A DNA stretch of 11,128 nucleotides from Verrucomicrobiota bacterium (GTDB lineage: Bacteria > Verrucomicrobiota > Verrucomicrobiia > Verrucomicrobiales > Akkermansiaceae). The notes under the pieces were generated by a model. That model ran no database searches. It had not been told where the DNA came from and saw only the letters and a program-made list of their open reading frames with translations. The DNA lies in NCBI GenBank assembly GCA_026397695.1, contig JAPLUJ010000609.1, positions 1-11,128 on the forward strand, given 5' to 3'. Below, piece by piece: positions 1 to 11,128 of this stretch; position 1 is the stretch's first letter, and every line of letters begins with the position of its first letter. Both the position numbers and the translations under genes were made by a program.

Positions 1-190
1 ATGGAGTGCGGTGGGAAGCGCAGCGCCACACCGCTTTGGCTGGAAAACGTTCCCTCATGCCAAAAACATCCTGCCGTCCCTAACAGCGCCGTCAGTCCTT
101 CACTGAGTGGAATGTGCAAGGACCATGAGCCGTCGTCGCCCAGCCAAAGCGGTGTCGGCGTTTGTCCCTCACTCTGCCACCGCACTCCAT
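1..190. repeat. Imperfect inverted repeat element (intergenic, REP-like)
   Basis: Two blocks near the window start reappear in reverse complement about 140 bases later. The block at 1-14 (ATGGAGTGCGGTGG) matches the reverse complement of 177-190, and the block at 28-43 (ACACCGCTTTGGCTGG) matches that of 140-155. The inner parts have diverged. Each copy can also form its own small hairpin: in the first, GCGGTG at 8-13 pairs with CACCGC at 29-34. The pair looks like two oppositely oriented copies of a short dispersed intergenic repeat. Apparent open frames here, including one starting at base 1, are translations of the repeat and were not called as genes. The left copy may continue beyond the window. 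Confidence 0.65.
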
Positions 191-212
191 GCCTTGGCTT
201 GCGCAGTGCGGG

Positions 213-241
213 TTGACACGGGTGTCGATTGTCTCCATGTT
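213..241 (+). promoter_or_regulatory. Possible sigma-70 promoter of the beta-CASP gene
   Basis: A perfect -35 hexamer TTGACA lies at 213-218. After a 17-base spacer comes CATGTT (236-241), a poor -10 hexamer. Transcription from here would give a leader of roughly 35-40 bases before the start codon at 285. The -35 match and spacing are good, but the -10 match is weak, so this is a tentative call. Confidence 0.22.
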
Positions 242-284
242 CCGCCCGCGGTGCCCACGCCGCGTGCATGCCCTGCCACTCATT

Positions 285-1646
285 ATGATTTTCAAAAGCC
301 TTTGTCGCCACGCCGGAATCGGCGCGAATTCCTATTTGCTGGAGACACGTGCCGCCAGAGTGGTGTTGGACGCGGGGATGCACCCGAAGCACGAGGGTTA
401 CGCGGCGGTGCCGCAATATCACTTTCTCGAAGAGGGCTCGGTCGATTCCATCGTTATCACACACTCGCACCTCGACCATGTGGGGACACTGCCGGTTTTC
501 CTCGACGAACAGCCGCAGGCGCGGGTTTTTCTAACACCCGAGACCGCCGAGCTCGCGGCAGCCCTACTGCACAACTCGGTGAACGTCATGCAGTCGAAAC
601 GCATTGAACACGGCATCACCGAGTATCCGCTGTTCGAACATCGTGAGCTGGACAAGATCGTGGAGGCCTTCGAAGCACGCGGCATCGAGCGCCCGTTTGA
701 TCTCGATGCCGAGGGCACGATGCGCGCCACCTTCCATGACGCCGGCCATATTCTGGGATCGGTGGGAGTAACGATTCAGGCGGCGGGCAAACGCGTGATG
801 TATACCGGAGATGTGAACTTCGAGCACAGCACGATTCAAAAGGCCGCATTGTTTCCGCTAGAGCCGGTGGACGCGTTGATTGTGGAAACCACCCGCGGCG
901 AACAGGCGCGCGCGGCGGGTTACGACCGCTCTAACGAGGAGAACGCCTTCGCCGAAGCGATCGCGCGGGTGCTCGCCCGCAAGGGGTCTGTGCTGGTTCC
1001 GGTGTTTGCGATGGGCAAGACCCAGGAGGTGCTGGCAATGTTGCATCGCTTCAAAGCCGAGGGACTCATCCCCAAACACACGCCGGTTTATATCGGCGGC
1101 CTGAGCACCAAGATGACACATATCTATGACCGCTTCAGCGATGTTTCGCGCCGTCATCTGCCGGGTTTCCGGTTTCTCAAGGACATGGAAATCCAGGGAA
1201 GCGACCGCAAACGCAAGGGACCCATTCCCTTCGGCTCGGGCTGCATCTACGCGCTGTCCAGCGGCATGATGTCGGAAAACACCGTGTCTAACATATTCGC
1301 CCGCCAGGGCATTCTCGAAAACAAACGCCACGGCCTGTTCTTCGTCGGTTATGCGGACCCCGAGACTCCCGGCGGACGGATCCGCATGGCGCAGCCCGGC
1401 GACAGCGTGCTACTGGATCCCGCGCATCCGCCGGTCCCGCTGCATTGCGAAATGCGTATCTTTGATTTCAGCGGCCACTCGACGCGCGACGCCATCGCCG
1501 ACTACATCGAAAAACTCCGGCCGAAGAAAACCTTCCTCGTGCATGGCGACGACGGGGCGGTCGAGTGGTTTCGCGCGGAAATCCAGCGACGCTTGCCGGA
1601 CACCCAGGTCATCGTGCCGATCCCGGGCGAGGAGCACGCGATTTGA
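285..1646 (+). CDS. Metallo-beta-lactamase fold, beta-CASP family hydrolase (probable RNA-processing nuclease)
   Basis: A 453-residue protein with the full motif set of beta-CASP metallo-hydrolases, a family dominated by RNA-processing nucleases (RNase J, CPSF-73-like). Visible are motif 1 Asp (VVLDAG, residues 26-31), motif 2 HSHLDH (60-65), motif 3 His in FHDAGH (150-155), motif 4 Asp in YTGD (173-176), the ETT of beta-CASP motif A, the conserved PVFAMGKTQE segment, GH of motif B (397-398) and H420 in LVHGD for motif C. All metal ligands appear present, so it should be an active two-zinc enzyme. The frame is open further upstream (to 162), but family similarity starts at MIFKSLCRHAGIGANSYLLE, so I chose ATG 285. 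No Shine-Dalgarno sequence precedes it. The gene stands alone, with no partner that reveals its substrate. It lacks an obvious RNase J C-terminal domain, so it is probably a stand-alone member. RNA as substrate is inferred from the family. Confidence 0.9.
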   Translation: MIFKSLCRHAGIGANSYLLETRAARVVLDAGMHPKHEGYAAVPQYHFLEEGSVDSIVITHSHLDHVGTLPVFLDEQPQARVFLTPETAELAAALLHNSVNVMQSKRIEHGITEYPLFEHRELDKIVEAFEARGIERPFDLDAEGTMRATFHDAGHILGSVGVTIQAAGKRVMYTGDVNFEHSTIQKAALFPLEPVDALIVETTRGEQARAAGYDRSNEENAFAEAIARVLARKGSVLVPVFAMGKTQEVLAMLHRFKAEGLIPKHTPVYIGGLSTKMTHIYDRFSDVSRRHLPGFRFLKDMEIQGSDRKRKGPIPFGSGCIYALSSGMMSENTVSNIFARQGILENKRHGLFFVGYADPETPGGRIRMAQPGDSVLLDPAHPPVPLHCEMRIFDFSGHSTRDAIADYIEKLRPKKTFLVHGDDGAVEWFRAEIQRRLPDTQVIVPIPGEEHAI

Positions 1647-1689
1647 GCGCGGGCGGCCATGTTCCTTACATTTTTCTTGCAAAGTAAGG
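1643..1689 (+). promoter_or_regulatory. Possible promoter and operator palindrome of the toxin-antitoxin operon
   Basis: TTGAGC (1643-1648) and TACATT (1667-1672), 18 bases apart, resemble a sigma-70 promoter and overlap the end of the preceding gene. CCTTAC at 1664-1669 and GTAAGG at 1684-1689 form a perfect inverted repeat whose half-site centres are 20 bases apart, about two helical turns. This AT-rich palindrome overlaps the putative -10 element. VapB/AbrB-type antitoxins commonly repress their own operon by binding such half-sites together with the toxin, so it is a reasonable operator candidate. Promoter matches are only partial. Confidence 0.35.
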
Positions 1690-1711
1690 CGTGCTGGTTG
1701 AGGATGCCTGT

Positions 1712-1972
1712 GTGTCAACACTCACATTAACCAGTAAACGCCAGGCGACCTTGCCGGTACGCTTGTGCAAGGAATTGAATCTCAATCCGGGAGATGTCAT
1801 CGAAGTGGAGCCGGCGCAATTGTCCGGTGAACGGGTATGGGTGCTGCGCCGACAGAAGTCCGCAGCCCGCCCATGGCTTGGATGCCTGAGGAACAAGACC
1901 AAGGTGCGGGATCATTCCATGGCAGCGGTCAGAGCCAGTATCGCGGCAGGGCGGGGGAGGAACGAGGGATGA
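1712..1972 (+). CDS. vapB: AbrB/MazE-fold antitoxin (VapB type)
   Basis: An 86-residue protein. Residues 3-43 (TLTLTSKRQATLPVRLCKEL, then LNLNPGDVIEVE) match the SpoVT/AbrB swapped-hairpin DNA-binding fold of VapB antitoxins. The C-terminal half contains WLG and a DHSM...RASIAAGR segment, typical of the toxin-neutralising tail of VapB partners of PIN toxins. I chose GTG 1712 because GAGGA at 1700-1704 lies seven bases upstream; an in-frame GTG at 1691 would add seven non-homologous residues. Its stop overlaps the next gene's start (ATGA, 1969-1972), implying translational coupling of antitoxin and toxin. It should bind its own operator as a complex with the toxin and block the PIN nuclease. 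Confidence 0.85.
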   Translation: MSTLTLTSKRQATLPVRLCKELNLNPGDVIEVEPAQLSGERVWVLRRQKSAARPWLGCLRNKTKVRDHSMAAVRASIAAGRGRNEG

Positions 1973-2367
1973 ATGTGGGGTTGGACACGTCAGTGGTCTT
2001 GCGCCTGCTGATAGGCAAACCACCCGCACAGACGGCGGTGGCGGTGGCGTTTCTGGACAACCTCCAGCGACGCGGGGCTCGTGCAGTCGTCTCGGACCTG
2101 GTGATTTCAGAAACCTACTTTGCCCTGCAATTCCATTTCAAAGTGACGAAAGCCGAAGCACTATCTTCTTTGGCTTTGCTGCTTTCGACAGGCGAGATTG
2201 CCGCTACCGGACAGGCCGGCAAAGTGCTGGCACAACCGGGGTTGGCGTCTGCCAAGCCAGGCTTTGTGGACCGCCTGATTCATGCCCACTACGCCGCCGC
2301 CGGATGCGCCATGGCAACCTTCGAGAAAACCGCCGGGAAATTGCCCAAAGTGAGCGTGTTGAAATGA
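1969..2367 (+). CDS. vapC: PIN-domain ribonuclease toxin (VapC type)
   Basis: A 132-residue protein of typical VapC length spanning one PIN domain. It starts with MNVGLDTSVVLRLL, giving the first acidic residue D6. The second is E48 in VISETYFAL and the third D101 in FVDRLIHAHY. At the fourth position the usual TFD reads TFE (E119). PIN toxins are Mg-dependent ribonucleases that cleave tRNA, rRNA or mRNA and halt growth when the antitoxin is lost. ATG 1969 is supported by GGAGG at 1956-1960 eight bases upstream and by the four-base overlap with the antitoxin. The ORF can be extended upstream to 1837 only by overlapping the antitoxin in another frame. The module lies between two unrelated transcription units, as expected for an acquired toxin-antitoxin cassette. 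Target RNA cannot be told from sequence. Confidence 0.85.
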   Translation: MNVGLDTSVVLRLLIGKPPAQTAVAVAFLDNLQRRGARAVVSDLVISETYFALQFHFKVTKAEALSSLALLLSTGEIAATGQAGKVLAQPGLASAKPGFVDRLIHAHYAAAGCAMATFEKTAGKLPKVSVLK

Positions 2368-2370
2368 CGT

Positions 2371-2384
2371 GGCGGAATTCCGCC
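2371..2384. terminator. Short palindrome between convergent genes, possible bidirectional terminator
   Basis: GGCGGAATTCCGCC is a perfect 14-base palindrome that can fold as a five-base-pair GC stem with an AATT loop. It fills the 17-base gap between the toxin stop (2365-2367) and the stop of the convergent FHA-MoxR gene (2385-2387), where a bidirectional terminator would be expected. No U-run follows on either strand, so intrinsic termination would be weak. Confidence 0.35.
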
Positions 2385-3860
<1,476 letters not shown>

Positions 3861-3872
3861 GATAGATATATG

Positions 3873-4565
3873 TCAGGCTTGCGTGAGATCGATGATACCA
3901 AGGTCGCGTGCCGTGCCTGCCACGCGCAAGCCACCGAGGGCCGGGAGATGGCGGTGGACGAGGAACGGGATGCCTTTGAGGCGGGGTGTTTCTTCCCGAT
4001 AGAGATGGCGGGTGCGTACCAATTGCAAGTCGTCGGAGGCTTCCCGCAGTTCGATGACTTCCAGGCGGCGCAGGCAGGCGTTGATTTCCTCGCCGGAGCC
4101 GCGGAGGATTTGTCCGTCGCGGATGCGTTCGGTGAAAACCAGTGCGACCTCGCCGTGGATGCCCGTCCGGTGTTGCAGGTGCCGGTTGAAGAAGGAATCC
4201 GCCTTGGCCACGCCCGCGTCGAGGTGTTGCGCGCGGTCGCGCGGCAAATCCGCCGCGGCACCCAGCGCAAGGCCTTCAAACAGCCGGTTGTCCCTGGTGA
4301 CTAACAGCAAATCGAAGCGGCCCACCGGCAGTTGTTGGAATCGGAATCCCGCGCCATCCTGATCCAGCGTGGCGAGATAGACGCGGGTGCGGTCGCGCTC
4401 GACGGCGATGGCATGGGTCAGCACGCCACCCTTGACCTTGGCTGTGATGACTCCCGCATCGGTGGTTAGAGGCTGGGTATAAATGCGGCCGGGGCCGTCG
4501 GCCAGGGTGAGCGGCGCGAGGGCTGTCAGCATGACACCTAACATGATCAGGGTTTGTCCGCCCAT
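3873..4565 (-). CDS. Exported protein of unknown function
   Basis: A 230-residue protein of no family I recognise. The N-terminus (MGGQTLIMLGVMLTALAPLT, then LADG) is a likely signal peptide with cleavage around residue 22, so the mature protein is probably periplasmic. The mature part is mostly polar. Its first half has short alternating hydrophobic strands (GVITAKVKGG, RVYLATLDQDG, RFDLLLVTRDN) suggesting a beta-rich domain; its second half is rich in Arg/Glu and probably helical (ACLRRLEVIELREASDDLQL). The start overlaps the end of the upstream TPR gene by 19 bases, and no Shine-Dalgarno sequence is seen, so translation is probably coupled. A second in-frame ATG at 4544 would leave a shorter signal peptide. 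Its position between the TPR protein and the MoxR ATPase suggests a small accessory component of the same envelope system. Confidence 0.75.
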   Translation of the reverse strand: MGGQTLIMLGVMLTALAPLTLADGPGRIYTQPLTTDAGVITAKVKGGVLTHAIAVERDRTRVYLATLDQDGAGFRFQQLPVGRFDLLLVTRDNRLFEGLALGAAADLPRDRAQHLDAGVAKADSFFNRHLQHRTGIHGEVALVFTERIRDGQILRGSGEEINACLRRLEVIELREASDDLQLVRTRHLYREETPRLKGIPFLVHRHLPALGGLRVAGTARDLGIIDLTQA

Positions 4566-6607
4566 GTTTTTGCCGTTTCGGCGCGTTCGTGTTTGGGATA
4601 GTCCTTCACCAGTGCGTTCCAGATTTTCCGGGCTTCATCCTTGTTGCCGAGTTCGTAGAGTGCGCGTCCCTGCCAAAACAGCACGTCGATTTCCTCCGGC
4701 GACCCGGGGCGCACCTTGAGGCATGTTTCGAGATCCTGCAATGCCCGGGACCACTCACCGGCAAGAAACATCACGCGCGCACGCCACAACAATTGGTCGC
4801 CCTCGATTTTGGCTGCCGGTCGCTGGCGTTCCCAGGCATCGAGTCTTGCGCGTGCTTCATCGAGGTGGTTGCCGTTCACCAAATCCTCAATGGCCAGTGA
4901 GTGTGAGCGGTCGATCACCGGCGCTTTTCTAGCAGCATCCTCAGGGCTGGCAACGGCCTCGGCAAAACAGCGAACCGCATCATCAATCCGGCCGTTGAGA
5001 AGCTCGTAGTCGCCCAGGCGGATCACCGCCATGTTGGCAAGTGCCTTGTCATTACTCTTGCGCAAGCGTGCGGCCAAGCCGATCACCAGCGGGTCCTTGA
5101 GACCGAACACCCGCAGGTCGAGTTCTAACAAATCCGCGGCGGCACCCATGGCGGCGCGTGCGGGTGGCGGCAACCCTATGAGTGTTTCGAGAGCGGCCTT
5201 GGGATCACGTTTGGCGGTTTCCCGGATGGTCATGGCGATCGCCGTGACCCACGTTCCCGCTGCGGGTTTTGCCACTGCCAGCCATGCTTCGGCCCAGCGG
5301 GCGGCGGTGGCCGCGGGCAGGAAATCCTTGGCGAGCACGAAACCCGCGCGCCGCGCCGGTTCGGACAGGGTGAATGGATCCTCCTGTTCCAGCAATTCGA
5401 GAAACTCCTTCATTTGGGGTTCTTGGTTGACGGATGCCGCTTCGATAGATCGCGGGATGACGAGCACATGGCGCCCCTCGATCATGCGCAGGTTGTTGCG
5501 CAAGCGCAGCGACACCCGCAGCGGGTCGAGGTTCATCCACAAGCGGCGGGTTTCAGGTCCCTGATCGACATGGCCGTCCGGCCACACCCACTCGACCTGC
5601 CAGTCCGTGCCGGGGTTGGCGATTTCACCCTTGACGCGCACATACCATTCGCCGCCATATCCGAGATAACGTCCGGCCTCTAACGAACATGCCGGCACCG
5701 GCGCGCCGTCGTGTGCTTCGATCGCGTCGGCCGTCACCTTGCCCGGATGCACCCATGCCTCGGGCGGCACGTTGCCGAGTTTGCCGTCCTGTTCCCAGCC
5801 GAGCACCATGGCCGCCGGTGGATTGATGGTTGCATGGCAATACTCGACACTCACGGTCCCTTCAGGCACGCGTACACTCACCGCCGGCACTTTTTCCGGA
5901 TGGAGTGACGGCGGATTGTTTTGTTGCCACTTGAGCGCCGCACGTCCGTCGATCGTCACATAGGATACATCGTCGGAGAGGGTGTAAAAACGCAGGTTGC
6001 CAGCCACCTTGGTCTTCACCAGACCGGTGTAGCGGCTGAGAAATCGAGCGGATTCACCCAACGGATTGTCACCGTGAAATATCATCGGCACGAAGGCCGC
6101 GCCATCGATCGCCGGGGATTTTTTCCATGCCTCCTGCCAACCGCCGAAGGTCGCCACGCTCGCGCCATCCGCTAACCGCCGGGTTTCTAACAACAAACTC
6201 CGCTGGGCCGACCATGAGCGCAGCCGCCGCGACGCGTTGCCACCGAAATAAAGAACCGCCGTCTTGCCTTCGGGCATGGATTGCGCGAGTAACAGCATGG
6301 AGCGGCCCACGCCGCGCCAAACCGGATCTAGTGCGATCTCCTTGCGCTCCGGTCCTAACAAAACCACGTCGCGCATGTCGGGCCGGCCGGCACCGAAATC
6401 CGGCACCTGGATTTCCCAACCCGCCGCGGGCACGCCGGGTGGATCGCCGGCATGCAGGAGCACGCGATAGGGAGCGCCTACCGCCGCCCAATCCTTATCC
6501 TTGTCCGTGGGTGCCGCCAACACCGCCGCAGGCACTAACAAAAAAACGATCCGACCGATCCGGCTGATCCGACTGATCCGACTGATCTGACTGACGTTCC
6601 CGATCAT
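4547..6607 (-). CDS. Exported PA14-like and TPR-repeat protein
   Basis: A 686-residue protein with a signal peptide (hydrophobic core IVFLLVPAAVLAAP, residues 20-33). Residues about 45-125 resemble the beta-sandwich of DUF2341-like proteins, ending in AVLYFGGNAS. Residues about 185-280 look like a PA14 domain (FYTLSDDVSYVTIDGR, with SDD at 211-213), usually a carbohydrate-binding module. The region from about 340 to 560 is less clear and largely helical. The last 130 residues hold TPR-type helical pairs (AGEWSRALQDLETCLKVRPG; ALYELGNKDEARKIWNALVK), suitable for protein-protein contacts. The ATG overlaps the previous stop as ATGA (6604-6607) and has no Shine-Dalgarno sequence, so it depends on coupling. 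Residues 8-19 (ISRISRISRIGR) are encoded by a 9-bp tandem repeat. Likely role: periplasmic scaffold linking glycan or polymer to the other operon products (inference). Domain labels are read by eye. Confidence 0.82.
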   Translation of the reverse strand: MIGNVSQISRISRISRIGRIVFLLVPAAVLAAPTDKDKDWAAVGAPYRVLLHAGDPPGVPAAGWEIQVPDFGAGRPDMRDVVLLGPERKEIALDPVWRGVGRSMLLLAQSMPEGKTAVLYFGGNASRRLRSWSAQRSLLLETRRLADGASVATFGGWQEAWKKSPAIDGAAFVPMIFHGDNPLGESARFLSRYTGLVKTKVAGNLRFYTLSDDVSYVTIDGRAALKWQQNNPPSLHPEKVPAVSVRVPEGTVSVEYCHATINPPAAMVLGWEQDGKLGNVPPEAWVHPGKVTADAIEAHDGAPVPACSLEAGRYLGYGGEWYVRVKGEIANPGTDWQVEWVWPDGHVDQGPETRRLWMNLDPLRVSLRLRNNLRMIEGRHVLVIPRSIEAASVNQEPQMKEFLELLEQEDPFTLSEPARRAGFVLAKDFLPAATAARWAEAWLAVAKPAAGTWVTAIAMTIRETAKRDPKAALETLIGLPPPARAAMGAAADLLELDLRVFGLKDPLVIGLAARLRKSNDKALANMAVIRLGDYELLNGRIDDAVRCFAEAVASPEDAARKAPVIDRSHSLAIEDLVNGNHLDEARARLDAWERQRPAAKIEGDQLLWRARVMFLAGEWSRALQDLETCLKVRPGSPEEIDVLFWQGRALYELGNKDEARKIWNALVKDYPKHERAETAKTWADKP
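6547..6591. repeat. 9-bp tandem repeat inside a signal peptide
   Basis: Five direct copies of a nine-base unit: CGATCCGAC, CGATCCGGC, TGATCCGAC, TGATCCGAC, TGATCTGAC, with a partial copy after them. Each contains a GATC site. On the minus strand they encode (SRI)n/(GRI)n in the n-region of the PA14/TPR protein's signal peptide. The unit length is a multiple of three, so copy-number change would alter the number of arginines without breaking the frame. Confidence 0.85.
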
Positions 6608-9600
6608 GGCGAATCGAGCGTGCGGAAATAATCGTCCACCGGTTGTTGGAAGCCGGCGGGCACGGCGGTGTCCGCGCCGCCGGGCAGGCGTTTCTCGCCG
6701 ACGAAGCGGCTGCCGGTGCCGTCTAACACTTTCAGGTCGCCGGTGGTGGCGCCATCGCCGAGTTTGCGCAGGCTTGCGACAATGCGGCGATGCAGCGCTT
6801 GGTAATCCGCCAGACGGCCGCTTTGCAGGGCTGCGCGTGATTCGTCCATCAGGCGTGCCACTTCCGGCAGCGGGCCGGTGCGCAGATAGAACAAGCGGGC
6901 GGTGGCATAACTCTTGGCGGTTTGTTGGGCGAGCAGCGCCTGTTCGGCGGCCAGCGCATCTTTGAGGATCTGGTCGGGGGTATTGACCGGGCGCAGCGGG
7001 GCATCGCCGGTCATGCCCGCGCGTTTGCTAACACCGCCGGCCTTGCCGCCGCCGGTGGCCTTGGCGTCCGCCGCCTGGCCGTCGTCCTGCACTTGTCCTT
7101 TTTGCATCGGGTCGTTGGTGCGCCGGGCATCGGTCGCACTGCCCTCTAACCGGTCGGCGCGCTGGTTGACCATCTCGCCGCTTGACATGCCTTCGCGGCC
7201 GCCACTGGAGCGGCCGGTCTGCTCATTTTTGTTAGGCGGGGTGTTGCCGGATTTTCCTTGGGCGTTGAAGCCCGGCATCGGGCCGTCGGCCACTTCCCAG
7301 CCGTTGGCGGGGTTGACTGCGAAGGCATTGTTAGAAGCGGCGTCCTGGACTTGTTCGGCGAGTCCTTCCTGTTCCTTGAGCAGGTCGCCTACCAGGTCGG
7401 TGAAGGCATCCGGCAGCGGGAGATTGGGGATTTCCGGCATTTCCGTGAGGTCGAAGTTTTCCATCAGCCACTTGGTGGTTTCATTTTTGTCGGGCAGCCA
7501 CATTTCCATATCGGCGGCGGTTTGGGCGGCCTTTTCCATATCTTCCAGCAGGCTTTCCTCTTTCTGGACGGCGATTTCCGACGGTTTCAATGCGCCCGCC
7601 GCCGCCTGCGCGGTATCCTGTTGGATCACATCCTCGTAGATTTTGGTGAGTTCCTCGCGCAGCTCGTTCATCGGGCGGAGGTCGGGAAACGCGTGCGCGT
7701 CGGTGAGCATCTGCTCTATCAACTTCGCGATCTCCGCTTTTTCCGCAGCCAGTTCCCCGGCCACCGCGACATCCTCCGGGCGGAATTCGTTTTTCGCTGC
7801 GAGAGCTTTGCTTTTTTCGACGACCGCGCGTTGTTGCTCGACCAAGGCGTCGAGTTTTTCGTGGATGCCGGCGGCAGTTTCCTTGAGGGATTCCGCCTTG
7901 TCGGCGGCACTGGATCGCTGTGAGTTGGTGAGCAGTTCCAGCACGCGGGCGAGGTCAACCAACACTTGTTTGCAGAGACCCGTTGCTACGGGAAACCGAT
8001 CGCCATCGATTTGTTCCGCGCTACGGATCATTTGTTCATAGATTTTCGTTGTGCCCATCAAGGCGGCGGCCTTGCCCAGTACCGTGCGGAAAGCCGCGTC
8101 GCCGATCGAGGCGCTCTGCGCACCGTCTGTTAGAGACTGACGCACCACCCGTGACTCGTCGGCCAGCGCGTCCTGATCCGCGGCCAGCGCCGCGCCCTCG
8201 CCCGCCTGTGCTTTCAACACACGCCCGTGCAACGCCTTTTGCCGGTTGAACAAAGCTTCCACCCGGCCTATCAGATCGCGGATTGCCGCGCCGCCGGACT
8301 CGTCGCGCAGGTCCGCAGGAAGGCTTTTCAAGCGGGCGAGGATCGCCGCCTCGAGGGCTTCGCCTTTGGCGAGTTGGCTACGCCGCTCGCCACCCTTGGC
8401 GGGACCCGCATCCCGCAAGGCCAGCACCGCCTGCGGCATCTCCCGGGCTAACAGTGCGGCGAGCACGTCGCGCCAGGCCGCCGACCCGGCAGGAGTGCCG
8501 GCTAACAATTGGCCGGCCGCCTCCTCGATGCGCAACTGGCGTTCCGCGAGGGTCGCCACATCTGCCAGATCGCTTTTTGCCGCATCCCGCAGGATCGCGC
8601 GGGTGGCATCCAGATTGGTTTGTTGGACCCGCAGCAGATCTTCCAGACTTCCCAACACCTCACCCTGGCGGGATTCCGTGGCGCGGCGCAATTCATCCGC
8701 AGTAACAATGCGCACCACCAGCATGCGCGACAAAGTACGGCCGGGTCCCGTGACGTCGTTGGCATCGCGGGCGCTCACGCAAAACCACGCTTCGTTTTCC
8801 TCGCTGCCAATCCATCGTGACAACTGGAGGTCCACGGATTGTTTGAAAGACGGCACGTCCGGCTTCCAGGTTTCGATCACCCGGGCGTCGGGTTTTTCCG
8901 GCGTGCCACGGCACACCGCCACCTCGGCAAGCCCGTAATCGTCACTGGCCTCGAATGTCAGGCGCAGCGAGGCATCTCTTGTTAGAAGAACTTCCTCCTC
9001 GCCCGTCGGTTGGATCAAGCGTATGCGCGGCGCCTCGTCCGCCTTGATGGTGAAGTTAATGCGCTCTTGATCCGATAGACCTACAACATCCGTCCAGCGG
9101 GCGGTCCACGTGCGATTGCCCGTTAGACGCCCGGTGAGTTGCCATAACTCCGGCGTGCCTGCCGTGCTTGCCTTGGCATCGTCGTGATCCACTGACAACT
9201 CTTTGATTGCGTGATCAAAGGTCCAGTCGAGAGTCACGTCGGAGCCATCCGGAACGGCGGGCCATGCCGTGCCATCCGACACCACAATGGTTTGCACTTT
9301 GGTGTAGGCCGGCGGCTTGATGGTGAGCTGACGGGCCACCACCTTGGCCGGGACTTGCACCTCGATGCGCCGCTCAAAGGACCGCGCGTCGCCGGCTGCA
9401 AATTGATAGCGCCCGCTATCGGCCCACTTGCAATCGACCGCCCAAGCCATCGTTTCGCCAGTCCGTTGCGCGACGTGGCGGATAACACTGCCATCGTCCT
9501 TGGTGACCACCAGCCAGACATCGGCCGGGGCCACGCCCGCCAAAGTAACCCGCATGGTGAGCACCGTGCCGCGCGCGACGCTGCGGTCACCCGGCTCCAC

Positions 9601-10163
9601 ATCCACCACCCGGGTCATGGTGAGCGGGGCGATTTCGCGTGCCGGCATCAACACCCGGCACAGGCGCTGGCGGAAGTCGGCGGGATGCAGGAGAAACAAT
9701 ACACACCCTAACAGCAAGAACGCTCCGGCCACCGCCGCCCAACGCCGGAGCAGCCGCCAGTCGTAAACCCGCTGCCATGCGATGCCACGCCACAAGCCGG
9801 CCAGTTCGCCTAACAAAACAATGCGCCATTGTGAACTTTCGGCCAACGACCGGTCGAGTTGCACGGCATTGACCAGGGCGTTGTCGGAGCGTGCGGTTGC
9901 CGTTTCGAGGCGGCGGCATTGGCGAGGGCGGCGGCCAAGGGCAACGCGATGGCCACCAAGCCCGCCCAGCGACCAAGCGCTCCGAAGCGTGCCCGTGCAT
10001 CCACCACCAGCCATGCACCTAACAGCACGCCTGCGGCGACCACGCCGATGGCCAGCGAAGTGAGCCCGCGGCCAATCTTCAAGGCACGTCCCGCACGCCG
10101 CAGGATCTGGCGTGGTGTCTGACCGTCGGATTCGGCGGCGGGAGATGTTGGGTTGGCATGCAC
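6604..10163 (-). CDS. Large membrane-anchored Ig-like/coiled-coil protein (DUF4175-like), interrupted by a frameshift
   Basis: A protein of about 1186 residues if one missing base is restored. The first 85 residues are in the frame starting at GTG 10163 (MHANPTSPAAESDG) and contain two membrane segments (about 33-54 and 66-85). The rest lies in another frame from about 9909, starting LETATARSDNALVNAVQLDR, with a third membrane segment at about 142-159. Then come a VVDVEPGD strand region (186-193) opening an Ig-like domain, PPAYT (284-288) opening a second, and EASDDYGL near 406-412. A long Ala/Glu/Lys/Gln-rich helical coiled-coil region covers about 500-920, a Gly/Met/Gln-rich low-complexity stretch about 950-1060, and a helical C-terminus ends in VDDYFRTLDSP. 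This architecture is known for DUF4175-type membrane proteins that accompany MoxR ATPases. The frame upstream of 9909 that continues the second part (to 10416) is arginine-rich and non-homologous, so it is a shadow. The GTG lies 9 bases after the previous stop, with AGAG immediately before it, and is an imperfect start. Confidence 0.8.
9909..9917 (-). other. Frameshift site in the DUF4175-like gene
   Basis: On the coding strand three GCC codons (9917-9909) are followed by CTCGAAACG. The upstream frame reads ...ALANAAA then S-K-R-Q and degenerates; the downstream frame reads L-E-T-A-T-A-R-S-D-N and continues for 1101 residues. Adding one C after the GCC run joins them as ANAAALETATARSDN, which fits the expected continuity. 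So one base is missing, or ribosomes shift by -1. No canonical X-XXY-YYZ slippery heptamer is present, which favours a sequencing or assembly deletion, or a real mutation. Confidence 0.75.
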
Positions 10164-10172
10164 CTCTGCAGG

Positions 10173-10850
10173 TTACGGCTTTGCCGGGGATTTTCCATCC
10201 CCATTCTTCGGATCCACGCGAAAAAGCCGGAAGTTGGCGAAGTAGGATTTTCCGGGGCCCATGGTGGCGCCGTAGTTGACGACCTTTACCGAGATATACT
10301 CCGGTTGCTGATCCTTGCCGGAGACCACCACGGTTTTGGGCACGGTGAAGTCGCGGCTTGCGGTGGTCCACATCTTCGAGTTGCCCGGCGGCGAGGGCAC
10401 CTGCGCCCGATAACACATCATCAGTGCGGGTCTGTCATCCGCCGGAGCGCGGCGGAAAATCGTGCGCTTTTGTTCCGGATGGGGGTCGCGGCTCCATGCC
10501 TCCGCGTGAATTTTGGCGGCCAAATCCCAGGTCATGCAATCGACCTCGATGTGATATGTCGCACCCGCTTCGACCGGCACCGGCACGCTCTCGATCTTGC
10601 CGCCCTGGTTGCCGGCGATCCCGGCGGGCAAATCAAGCATCACCGCCCTGCGTCCGCCCACCTCTCCCGGCGGTGCCATTTTCACATACGGTCCGTTGTC
10701 CTTGTAAAACTCCTCATCGGGAAAAACCGTGAGCCAGCCGTGCAGCGGCTGCTTGCCCTCGAAGCCGCCGTTAGGCAGCAGGTTCTTGACGTCTCCGCCC
10801 GCCGCATGTGCGGATGTTAGAACAAGCGCGACGAAAGTGGTAGCGGTCAT
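10173..10850 (-). CDS. Exported CBM4/9-like beta-sandwich protein
   Basis: A 225-residue protein. After a short signal peptide-like start (MTATTFVALVLTSAHAAG) the mature protein opens with NLLPNGGFEGKQPLHGW, the characteristic first strand of CBM4/9-like carbohydrate-binding jelly rolls. Later strands (GKIESVPVPVEAGATYHIEV, near the middle, and KSYFANFRLFRVDPKNG at the end) fit the same fold, in which the last strand usually describes the ligand-side calcium sheet. I see no catalytic domain. The frame is open to ATG codons at 10910 and 10922, but those residues (MFGRMPNTACGTQALP) are simply the translation of a hairpin repeat, so I chose ATG 10850. The chosen start has no basic residue in its n-region and no Shine-Dalgarno sequence, so the start is not certain. 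It is the first gene of the operon, with only 9 bases to the next gene's GTG. Confidence 0.78.
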   Translation of the reverse strand: MTATTFVALVLTSAHAAGGDVKNLLPNGGFEGKQPLHGWLTVFPDEEFYKDNGPYVKMAPPGEVGGRRAVMLDLPAGIAGNQGGKIESVPVPVEAGATYHIEVDCMTWDLAAKIHAEAWSRDPHPEQKRTIFRRAPADDRPALMMCYRAQVPSPPGNSKMWTTASRDFTVPKTVVVSGKDQQPEYISVKVVNYGATMGPGKSYFANFRLFRVDPKNGDGKSPAKP

Positions 10851-10881
10851 TGTGATCGCGCGTGTCCGGAATACGGGGAGC

Positions 10882-10923
10882 GCCTGCGTCCCGCAGGCAG
10901 TGTTCGGCATCCTGCCGAACACT
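10882..10923. repeat. Tandem perfect hairpins (REP-like intergenic element)
   Basis: Two perfect inverted repeats lie end to end. GCCTGCG (10882-10888) pairs with CGCAGGC (10892-10898) across a TCC loop. AGTGTTCGGC (10899-10908) pairs with GCCGAACACT (10914-10923) across ATCCT. The element lies in the divergent gap between the CBM-like gene and the RND fragment. It looks like a dispersed palindromic repeat and not a terminator, since no U-run follows on either strand. It could still attenuate or stabilise the operon's leader RNA. Confidence 0.8.
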
Positions 10924-11128
10924 CTTCAGATACCGAACTCACCGCGCCAGCCTCCGATATAACAGAACCACATTCCGCCCATGAGGAGGATTTTTTCACC
11001 CGGCTTTACCGCCGCGTGATGGGGCCGCTGATTCACCATGCGGGCTGGCGCTGGGCGTTCCTGTTAGGGATCACGCTGCTGCTGTTGGCATCCTTCGCCA
11101 CAGTTGGGATCGGCTGGGTGAAAGTGAA
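10923..11128 (+). CDS. RND-family efflux permease, partial (runs off the window; upstream half not seen)
   Basis: From about 10980 the frame reads AHEEDFFTRLYRRVMGPLIH, then HAGWRWAFLLGITLLLLASF and ATVGIGWVKV to the window end. The Y-R-R-V-M-x-P-L-I segment before a membrane helix and a V-K-V after it match the central region of RND (AcrB/CusA-like) transporters, just before the second membrane bundle. No N-terminal half is present: the frame is open back to a stop at 10818-10820, but passes through the hairpin repeat, and the first ATG/GTG codons in frame are GTG 11016 and ATG 11019, inside the conserved segment. GAGGAGGA at 10983-10990 looks like a ribosome binding site, yet no start codon in this frame follows at the right distance. 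It could be a 5'-truncated gene, a split half-transporter, or a gene with an unusual start. The listed left end is the edge of the repeat and not a proven start. Confidence 0.55.

Follow-up and report, generated by a model that had tools for sequence, protein, structure and literature searches.

The 11,128-base stretch of contig JAPLUJ010000609.1 from a Verrucomicrobiota bacterium of the Akkermansiaceae (assembly GCA_026397695.1; the whole stretch is hereafter called the window) raises the question of why one hexamer, CTAACA (TGTTAG on the opposite strand), recurs throughout it. The word occurs 19 times as CTAACA and seven times as TGTTAG. These 26 copies compare with 2.8 expected from base composition (9.3-fold) and 1.3 expected from a second-order Markov model, in agreement with an earlier note on this DNA, which had counted about 26 copies against about three predicted. 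CTAACA is the top 6-mer of the window, its copies sit in genes of either strand, and their density of 2.3 per kb is above the genome average. CTAA in the window is always extended to CTAAC (24 of 24 on the plus strand) and TTAG is always preceded by G (10 of 10), giving 34 of 34 in total. The two TTA codons without a following G that the earlier note had placed near 2590 and 6287 are both visible in the sequence. As described below, CTAACA is a highly iterated recognition word, and its most likely use is that of an uptake-like self tag.

The excess is found over the whole genome. Genomes are denoted here by handles, where G000 is the source genome, and genus, family, order, class and phylum are the labels of these handles. 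With the reversed word as the control for genome-wide counts, CTAACA occurs 3746 times in G000 (4.53 Mb, 83% complete) against 1635 for the control, corresponding to 0.83 copies per kb. The sampled contigs of G000 without the window hold 1.15 copies per kb, a value biased upwards, since the CTAACA hit list had supplied 12 of the 20 contigs in one sample. The genome-wide count and the window-free contigs rule out an excess limited to the window. For the codon-level tests, genes were predicted with a simple script. We used 31 of 41 loci of G000 (10 read as N), four of five for each of G035, G006 and G031, and nine of ten for G172, while G028 (none of three loci usable) and G167 (one of four) stand outside the statistics. 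The gene calls of G009 cover just 0.59 of its sequence, and its codon tests are weak accordingly.

A shuffle of synonymous codons that keeps the protein and the codon set of each gene predicts 20 copies of CTAACA in 157 kb of predicted coding DNA of G000, against the 186 copies present, which make it the top 6-mer. The earlier note had named a genome-wide count and a codon-preserving shuffle as checks of the excess, and both bear it out. All the stop-free codon phases are enriched over the shuffle in G000, CTA ACA (35 vs. 1.4), NCT AAC A (36 vs. 5.7), TG TTA G (107 vs. 10.6) and T GTT AG (8 vs. 1.1), and the stop-free phases are likewise enriched in G172. Both orientations are raised within genes of G000 (71 CTAACA and 115 TGTTAG, with 7.1 and 11.7 expected), at the ratio that codon use predicts. 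Over the 31 contigs, G follows the TTA codon in 138 of 184 cases, and AC follows the CTA codon in 71 of 199. The word is also in excess in short intergenic DNA, with 11 copies in G000 and 13 in G172 where 1.6 are expected in each. The phase enrichment and the intergenic excess rule out codon or protein selection as the cause, as the earlier note had maintained. The CTAACA excess is a DNA-level motif, present genome-wide in coding and intergenic DNA regardless of frame and strand.

The four codon placements need different base changes, and therefore no single mutation feeds all of them. This point bears on a mutational hot spot, in which a single biased substitution, such as the change of CCAAC to CTAAC through deamination or short-patch repair, would make the word. 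In the alignment with G326 (93.5% identity), 20 of the 25 aligned words are intact, four read CCAACA and one reads CTGACC; two further CTAACA words are present in G326 and not in their alignment partner in G000. That four of the five broken words are CCAACA is what such a hot spot would produce, and G035 is low in CCAAC at phase 1 (30 vs. 41) and in GTTGG at phase 2 (15 vs. 23). However, the same four differences are expected from any synonymous transition, and G000 and G172 are enriched for the CTA ACA and GTT AG phases, into which CCAAC has no synonymous route. A matching loss is not seen in G000 either, with 163 vs. 141 for CCAAC at phase 1 and 107 vs. 124 for GTTGG at phase 2. Vsr was found in 29 of the 73 genomes of the genus (p 0.09, the motif being higher where Vsr is missing) and a C5 methylase (PF00145) in 38, with no relation to the motif level (p 0.36); neither was found in the motif-rich G006, G036 and G319, which are 96–97% complete. 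Vsr and C5 methylase, which show no positive association with the motif level over the 73 genomes, were thus rejected as the cause. Taken together, the phases, the G326 comparison and the distribution of the two enzymes disfavor a single-source mutation, and a hot-spot product, one of the candidates in the earlier note, is very improbable. In alignments at 74–80% identity, the words outlive the DNA around them, 0.37 being intact, compared with 0.24 of all 6-mers and a median of 0.14 for TA-containing words. Repeated origin of the word at a given site could contribute to this apparent conservation.

The shape of the word should be noted. CTAACA is mostly preceded by T or C and mostly followed by A or G, giving YCTAACAR, and the form in G172 extends to TCTAACAGA (31 copies vs. 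0.3 expected); the guess of the earlier note that the true motif is longer than six bases is thus borne out. Among the words of G000 that differ at one position, CTATCA, CTAGCA and CTAACG are raised 2- to 3-fold (2.7-fold for CTAACG), CTAACC is not enriched (1.1-fold), and CTAAAA, CTAAGA and CTAATA are depleted. The flanks tolerate mismatches, and the core C-T-A-x-C does so little. This graded profile looks like recognition by a protein. Weaker or broader forms are carried by G051, G291 and G302.

The level of the word differs largely within the genus. Relative to the reversed word, CTAACA ranges from 0.07 to 3.37 among the 73 genomes of the genus (the source genome included); this ratio is at least 1.5 in 17 of them and below 0.5 in another 17. 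The ratio is a rough gauge, since G000 gives 2.3 by the ratio and 9.3 by the codon shuffle. In the order (288 genomes), high ratios are also seen in several further genera, and a low level in one large genus (g18). In the phylum (387 genomes), YCTAACAR is above the control in 11 genomes, 10 of which belong to the same order, as read from the table of counts. None of 80 loci of named genomes exceeds 0.3 YCTAACAR per kb, and no comparable word was found in the samples of the low-ratio genomes G009, G014 and G033. An exemption of CTAACA from a wider depletion of TA words was also considered and set aside; in G014 and G033, CTAAC is scarce to much the same degree as the remaining CTAAx words. G167, of genus g23, has 3554 copies of CTAACA against 1920 for the control and 191 of YCTAACAR against 531, and perhaps uses another dialect; G precedes all three CTAACA copies in its single readable stretch of 3.6 kb.

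Other versions of the word occur in two other families, so that versions with the CTAAC core are present in three families. In G043 (same order, other family), GCCTAACAA ranks first among the 9-mers, with 10 coding copies vs. 0 expected; the 60-kb sample holds just 11 exact copies. In G483 (same class, other family), the top words are GCCTAACGA, with 41 copies in 60 kb vs. 0.3 expected, and the unrelated AAGATCGAC(A). The 10-mer AAGATCGACA occurs 4653 times in G483 (2.9 Mb; 1.6 per kb), where its reversed-word control is 0. Within the 60-kb sample, there are 103 copies vs. 0.3 expected (approximately 1.7 per kb), and its 30 one-mismatch neighbors together have 14. In the family of G483, AAGATCGACA exceeds 200 copies in 33 of 81 genomes and the control never exceeds 3 (by reading of the table). 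GCCTAACR is very high in G700 (5524 vs. 363), in the other four genomes of g246, in G676 (g237) and in G483, and AAGATCGACA is scarce (19 to 29 copies) in the g246 and g237 genomes. By the same reading, G483 alone combines more than 200 copies of AAGATCGACA with GCCTAACR above the control. Among the matches listed in a search of the open-licence literature, there was no description of CTAACA, GCCTAACGA or AAGATCGACA in this bacterial group. In the three G483 stretches (L248–L250), predicted genes hold 82 copies of the 9-mer AAGATCGAC in 53.6 kb, and the 6.4 kb outside them hold 25, a higher density.

These features can be compared with the known self tags. Biased uptake and recombination are known from Neisseriaceae and Pasteurellaceae (PMC3630211, PMC1939737, PMC2346458, PMC2397512, PMC12616744). 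The DNA uptake sequence (DUS) of Neisseriaceae occurs in dialects with 943 to 5918 copies per genome, and S. muelleri carries two words (PMC3630211). The likeness consists in thousands of copies on both strands, in coding and intergenic DNA, versions varying from genus to genus around a strict core, and the presence of a second word in one genome (PMC3630211). The DUS differs in that the CTAxC core here is shorter and belongs to another bacterial group, that CTAACA is graded rather than sharp, and that the second word here is unrelated to the first and not a dialect of it. The uptake signal sequence (USS) of Pasteurellaceae, like CTAACA, has a density near one per kb and graded one-off words, whose graded over-representation is part of the drive model for the USS (PMC1939737). 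One orientation of the USS is commoner in reading frames (PMC2346458), and TGTTAG is likewise commoner than CTAACA in the sense direction here (116 vs. 73), as expected from codon use.

We consider that CTAACA (YCTAACAR with the strict core CTAxC) may well be a genome-wide self tag resembling a DNA uptake sequence, at somewhat less than an even chance. In this view, the machinery of uptake or recombination would include a DNA-binding protein that favors fragments carrying the word. The favored fragments, mostly from the same species, would then replace chromosomal copies, and the word would accumulate through biased transfer wherever the protein sequence permits. Biased uptake and recombination would account for the frame-free spread, the graded neighbors, the dialects, the presence of two words in one genome and the differences between relatives. 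The lack of polarity in G483 and G000 and the better survival of the words in diverged alignments also count in its favor. We infer that a protein reads the word and takes part in DNA uptake, and that drive, rather than any advantage to the cell, gives rise to the excess. The earlier note had offered an uptake-like sequence, a recombination or nucleoid-organizing site, a methylation motif and a hot-spot product; judging from copy number, dialects, the two words and the graded neighbors, the first is the best supported.

Methylation-coupled repair is an alternative that we regard as unlikely, though worth weighing. A methylase would modify the word, and the mismatch repair it directs would create and protect the copies, leaving the excess as a by-product, as supposed for the highly iterated palindromes (HIPs). 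HIP1 (GCGATCGC) of cyanobacteria is highly iterated with a similar density of approximately one per kb, and other words replace it in some species (PMC4390886). AAGATCGACA contains GATC, and the CTAACA vs. CCAACA difference in four of the five words broken between G000 and G326 also fits such repair. Contrarily, HIPs are palindromes tied to methylases, whereas CTAACA, GCCTAACGA and AAGATCGACA are not palindromic, and the C5 methylases do not track CTAACA, as described above. For the methylation candidate of the earlier note, the comparison covers the C5 class, which motif-rich genomes do not require.

Orientation bears on a site of the Chi type, a word that would regulate a nuclease of the RecBCD or AddAB type and be retained for repair. 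Chi in Escherichia coli is biased to the leading strand. No polarity was observed for the words of G483 (16/21, 20/16 and 14/20 per stretch) or for CTAACA in G000 (62 with and 69 against the G-rich strand), and an orientation effect was likewise not found in G035 and G010. An effect is present in G326 (24 with and 58 against the G-rich strand, p 0.002), with a hint in G172 (121 with and 162 against, p 0.06); these mixed results bear on the recombination or nucleoid candidate of the earlier note as well. The length (6–8 bases), density and spread of the word fit Chi sites, which are short, abundant and genome-wide, and Chi motifs have been identified in few species and went undetected in most Proteobacteria surveyed (PMC8022716). 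However, CTAACA is depleted in part of the genus, and the 17 of 73 genomes that lie below half of the control count would be odd for a repair signal. To our knowledge, no known Chi resembles a 10-mer at 1.6 per kb such as that of G483. A Chi-like role is improbable.

A site of an abundant nucleoid or chromosome-organizing protein is still less probable. The quasi-palindromic TCT-AAC-AGA form in G172 and the small number of close pairs in G000 (5 vs. 12.4, all kinds, within 45 bases) would suit such a protein. However, species of one genus differ greatly and relatives carry an unrelated word, and the densities of parS, matS and KOPS are far below that of CTAACA. Integron attC sites, whose core is RYYYAAC / GTTRRRY, were considered as well, since GCCTAAC and its complement fit these letters. 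They were set aside, as no excess of inverted pairs is found within 45 bases. Over the same distance, close pairs number 23 vs. 21.1 in G172, and in G483 they number 0 vs. 3.7 for GCCTAAC and 10 vs. 6.7 for AAGATCGAC. CTAACA in G000 and GCCTAAC in G483 thus pair less than by chance, as if the sites avoided each other; this is not the case in G172.

Several observations weigh against the interpretation of CTAACA as an uptake-like self tag. USS pairs form terminators (PMC5217627) and the USS lie towards gene ends (PMC2346458), whereas terminator-type inverted pairs of CTAACA were not found, close pairs within 45 bases being near or below chance, and CTAACA has no gene-end bias. The orientation effect in G326 and the hint of one in G172 belong here too. 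The CTAACA density varies from contig to contig in G000 beyond a Poisson distribution (chi-square 54.9, 30 degrees of freedom, p 0.004). At 74–80% identity, 113 of 634 TA-containing words are kept at least as well as CTAACA, and CCAACA itself is intact in 0.31 of cases. Intergenic DNA contains just two or three copies of CTAACA in each of the other five samples. Some phases are not raised in smaller samples, namely CTAAC at phase 0 in G051 (4 vs. 8.5), NCT AAC in G006 (2 vs. 2.1) and GTT AG in G010 (5 vs. 6.5). The signal in G051 is broader, CTGACA, CTAGCA and CTAACA all being raised. The AT-rich G291 has a ratio of 3.3, but its shuffle gives approximately 66 vs. 38 (approximately 1.7-fold), indicating that the reversed-word ratio can mislead in AT-rich genomes. 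The discrimination between self and foreign DNA by a word of 6 to 8 bases with a short core would be weak. Finally, motif-poor species have ComEC and PilM just as often. ComEC was found in 70 and PilM in 71 of the 73 genomes of the genus, and the genomes without a match are 57–66% complete. Competence is thus possible, and because both genes are present in motif-rich and motif-poor species alike, they do not discriminate between them and were set aside as discriminating genes.

The dialects and the unrelated word allow a broader proposal, which we make tentatively and with a little less confidence than that for CTAACA itself. This bacterial group, outside Neisseriaceae and Pasteurellaceae, may have at least two unrelated words, the CTAAC-core dialects and AAGATCGACA, which would have been gained, lost or exchanged among genera, and even among the species of a single genus, G483 having both. 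They would serve as self tags for natural transformation via putative receptors. The best-known uptake sequences belong to two proteobacterial families, and it is debated how they arose and what they are for. If the proposal is true, a separate set of words and dialects, together with a genus that ranges from depleted to strongly enriched, would be a natural experiment on how tags originate, change and are lost, and could lead to receptors, and to natural transformation in bacteria that do not lend themselves to manipulation. Should repair or methylation be the cause instead, the words would add another example of a repair-made iterated word to those of cyanobacteria.

The positions of the individual words in the window are as follows. 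On the plus strand, the CTAACA copies identical in G326 are at 80–85, 9708–9713 and 10019–10024 (CCTAACAG), 531–536, 3128–3133 and 6723–6728 (TCTAACAC), 1288–1293 (TCTAACAT), 4301–4306 (ACTAACAG), 5125–5130 and 6187–6192 (TCTAACAA), 6355–6360 and 9810–9815 (CCTAACAA), 6535–6540 (ACTAACAA), 8448–8453 (GCTAACAG) and 8502–8507 (GCTAACAA). Those at 3008–3013 (TCTAACAG), 3569–3574 (TCTAACAC) and 4538–4543 (CCTAACAT) are CCAACA in G326, and that at 7028–7033 (GCTAACAC) is CTGACC. On the minus strand, where the word appears as TGTTAG, the copies at 7230–7235, 7329–7334, 8128–8133, 8980–8985 and 10815–10820 are identical in G326, that at 3065–3070 is CCAACA, and that at 11062–11067 lies outside the G326 alignment. 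Degenerate copies, given by the coordinates of CTAAC or GTTAG, are CTAACG at 931–935, 2957–2961 and 5680–5684 and CTAACC at 6172–6176 and 7146–7150 on the plus strand, and CTAACC at 4465–4469 and CTAACG at 9122–9126 and 10770–10774 on the minus strand. The copy at 9122–9126 is CTAACA in G326.

Pfam matches were obtained for three of the seven predicted window proteins scanned: one is a beta-CASP metallo-hydrolase, another an FHA-MoxR ATPase and the third a TPR protein. Of the three best-matching named relatives of the MoxR protein, two come from Verrucomicrobia metagenome-assembled genomes, at 58% identity. At the start of the TPR-protein frame (6545–6600), near-tandem GATCCGACTGATCC-like repeats encode the peptide ISRISRISRIGR. 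A segment of approximately 55 bases at 10873–10927 contains two hairpin-like inverted repeats and is a possible mobile intergenic repeat. In five relatives (L183, L184, L185, L187 and L194), a sequence 87–96% identical to it lies next to another gene, adjoining the part aligned with window position 4544. The segment 1–205 aligns twice in the relative L211, and ACCGCTTTGGCTGG near 31 comes back inverted near 140; this segment is perhaps a small intergenic repeat.

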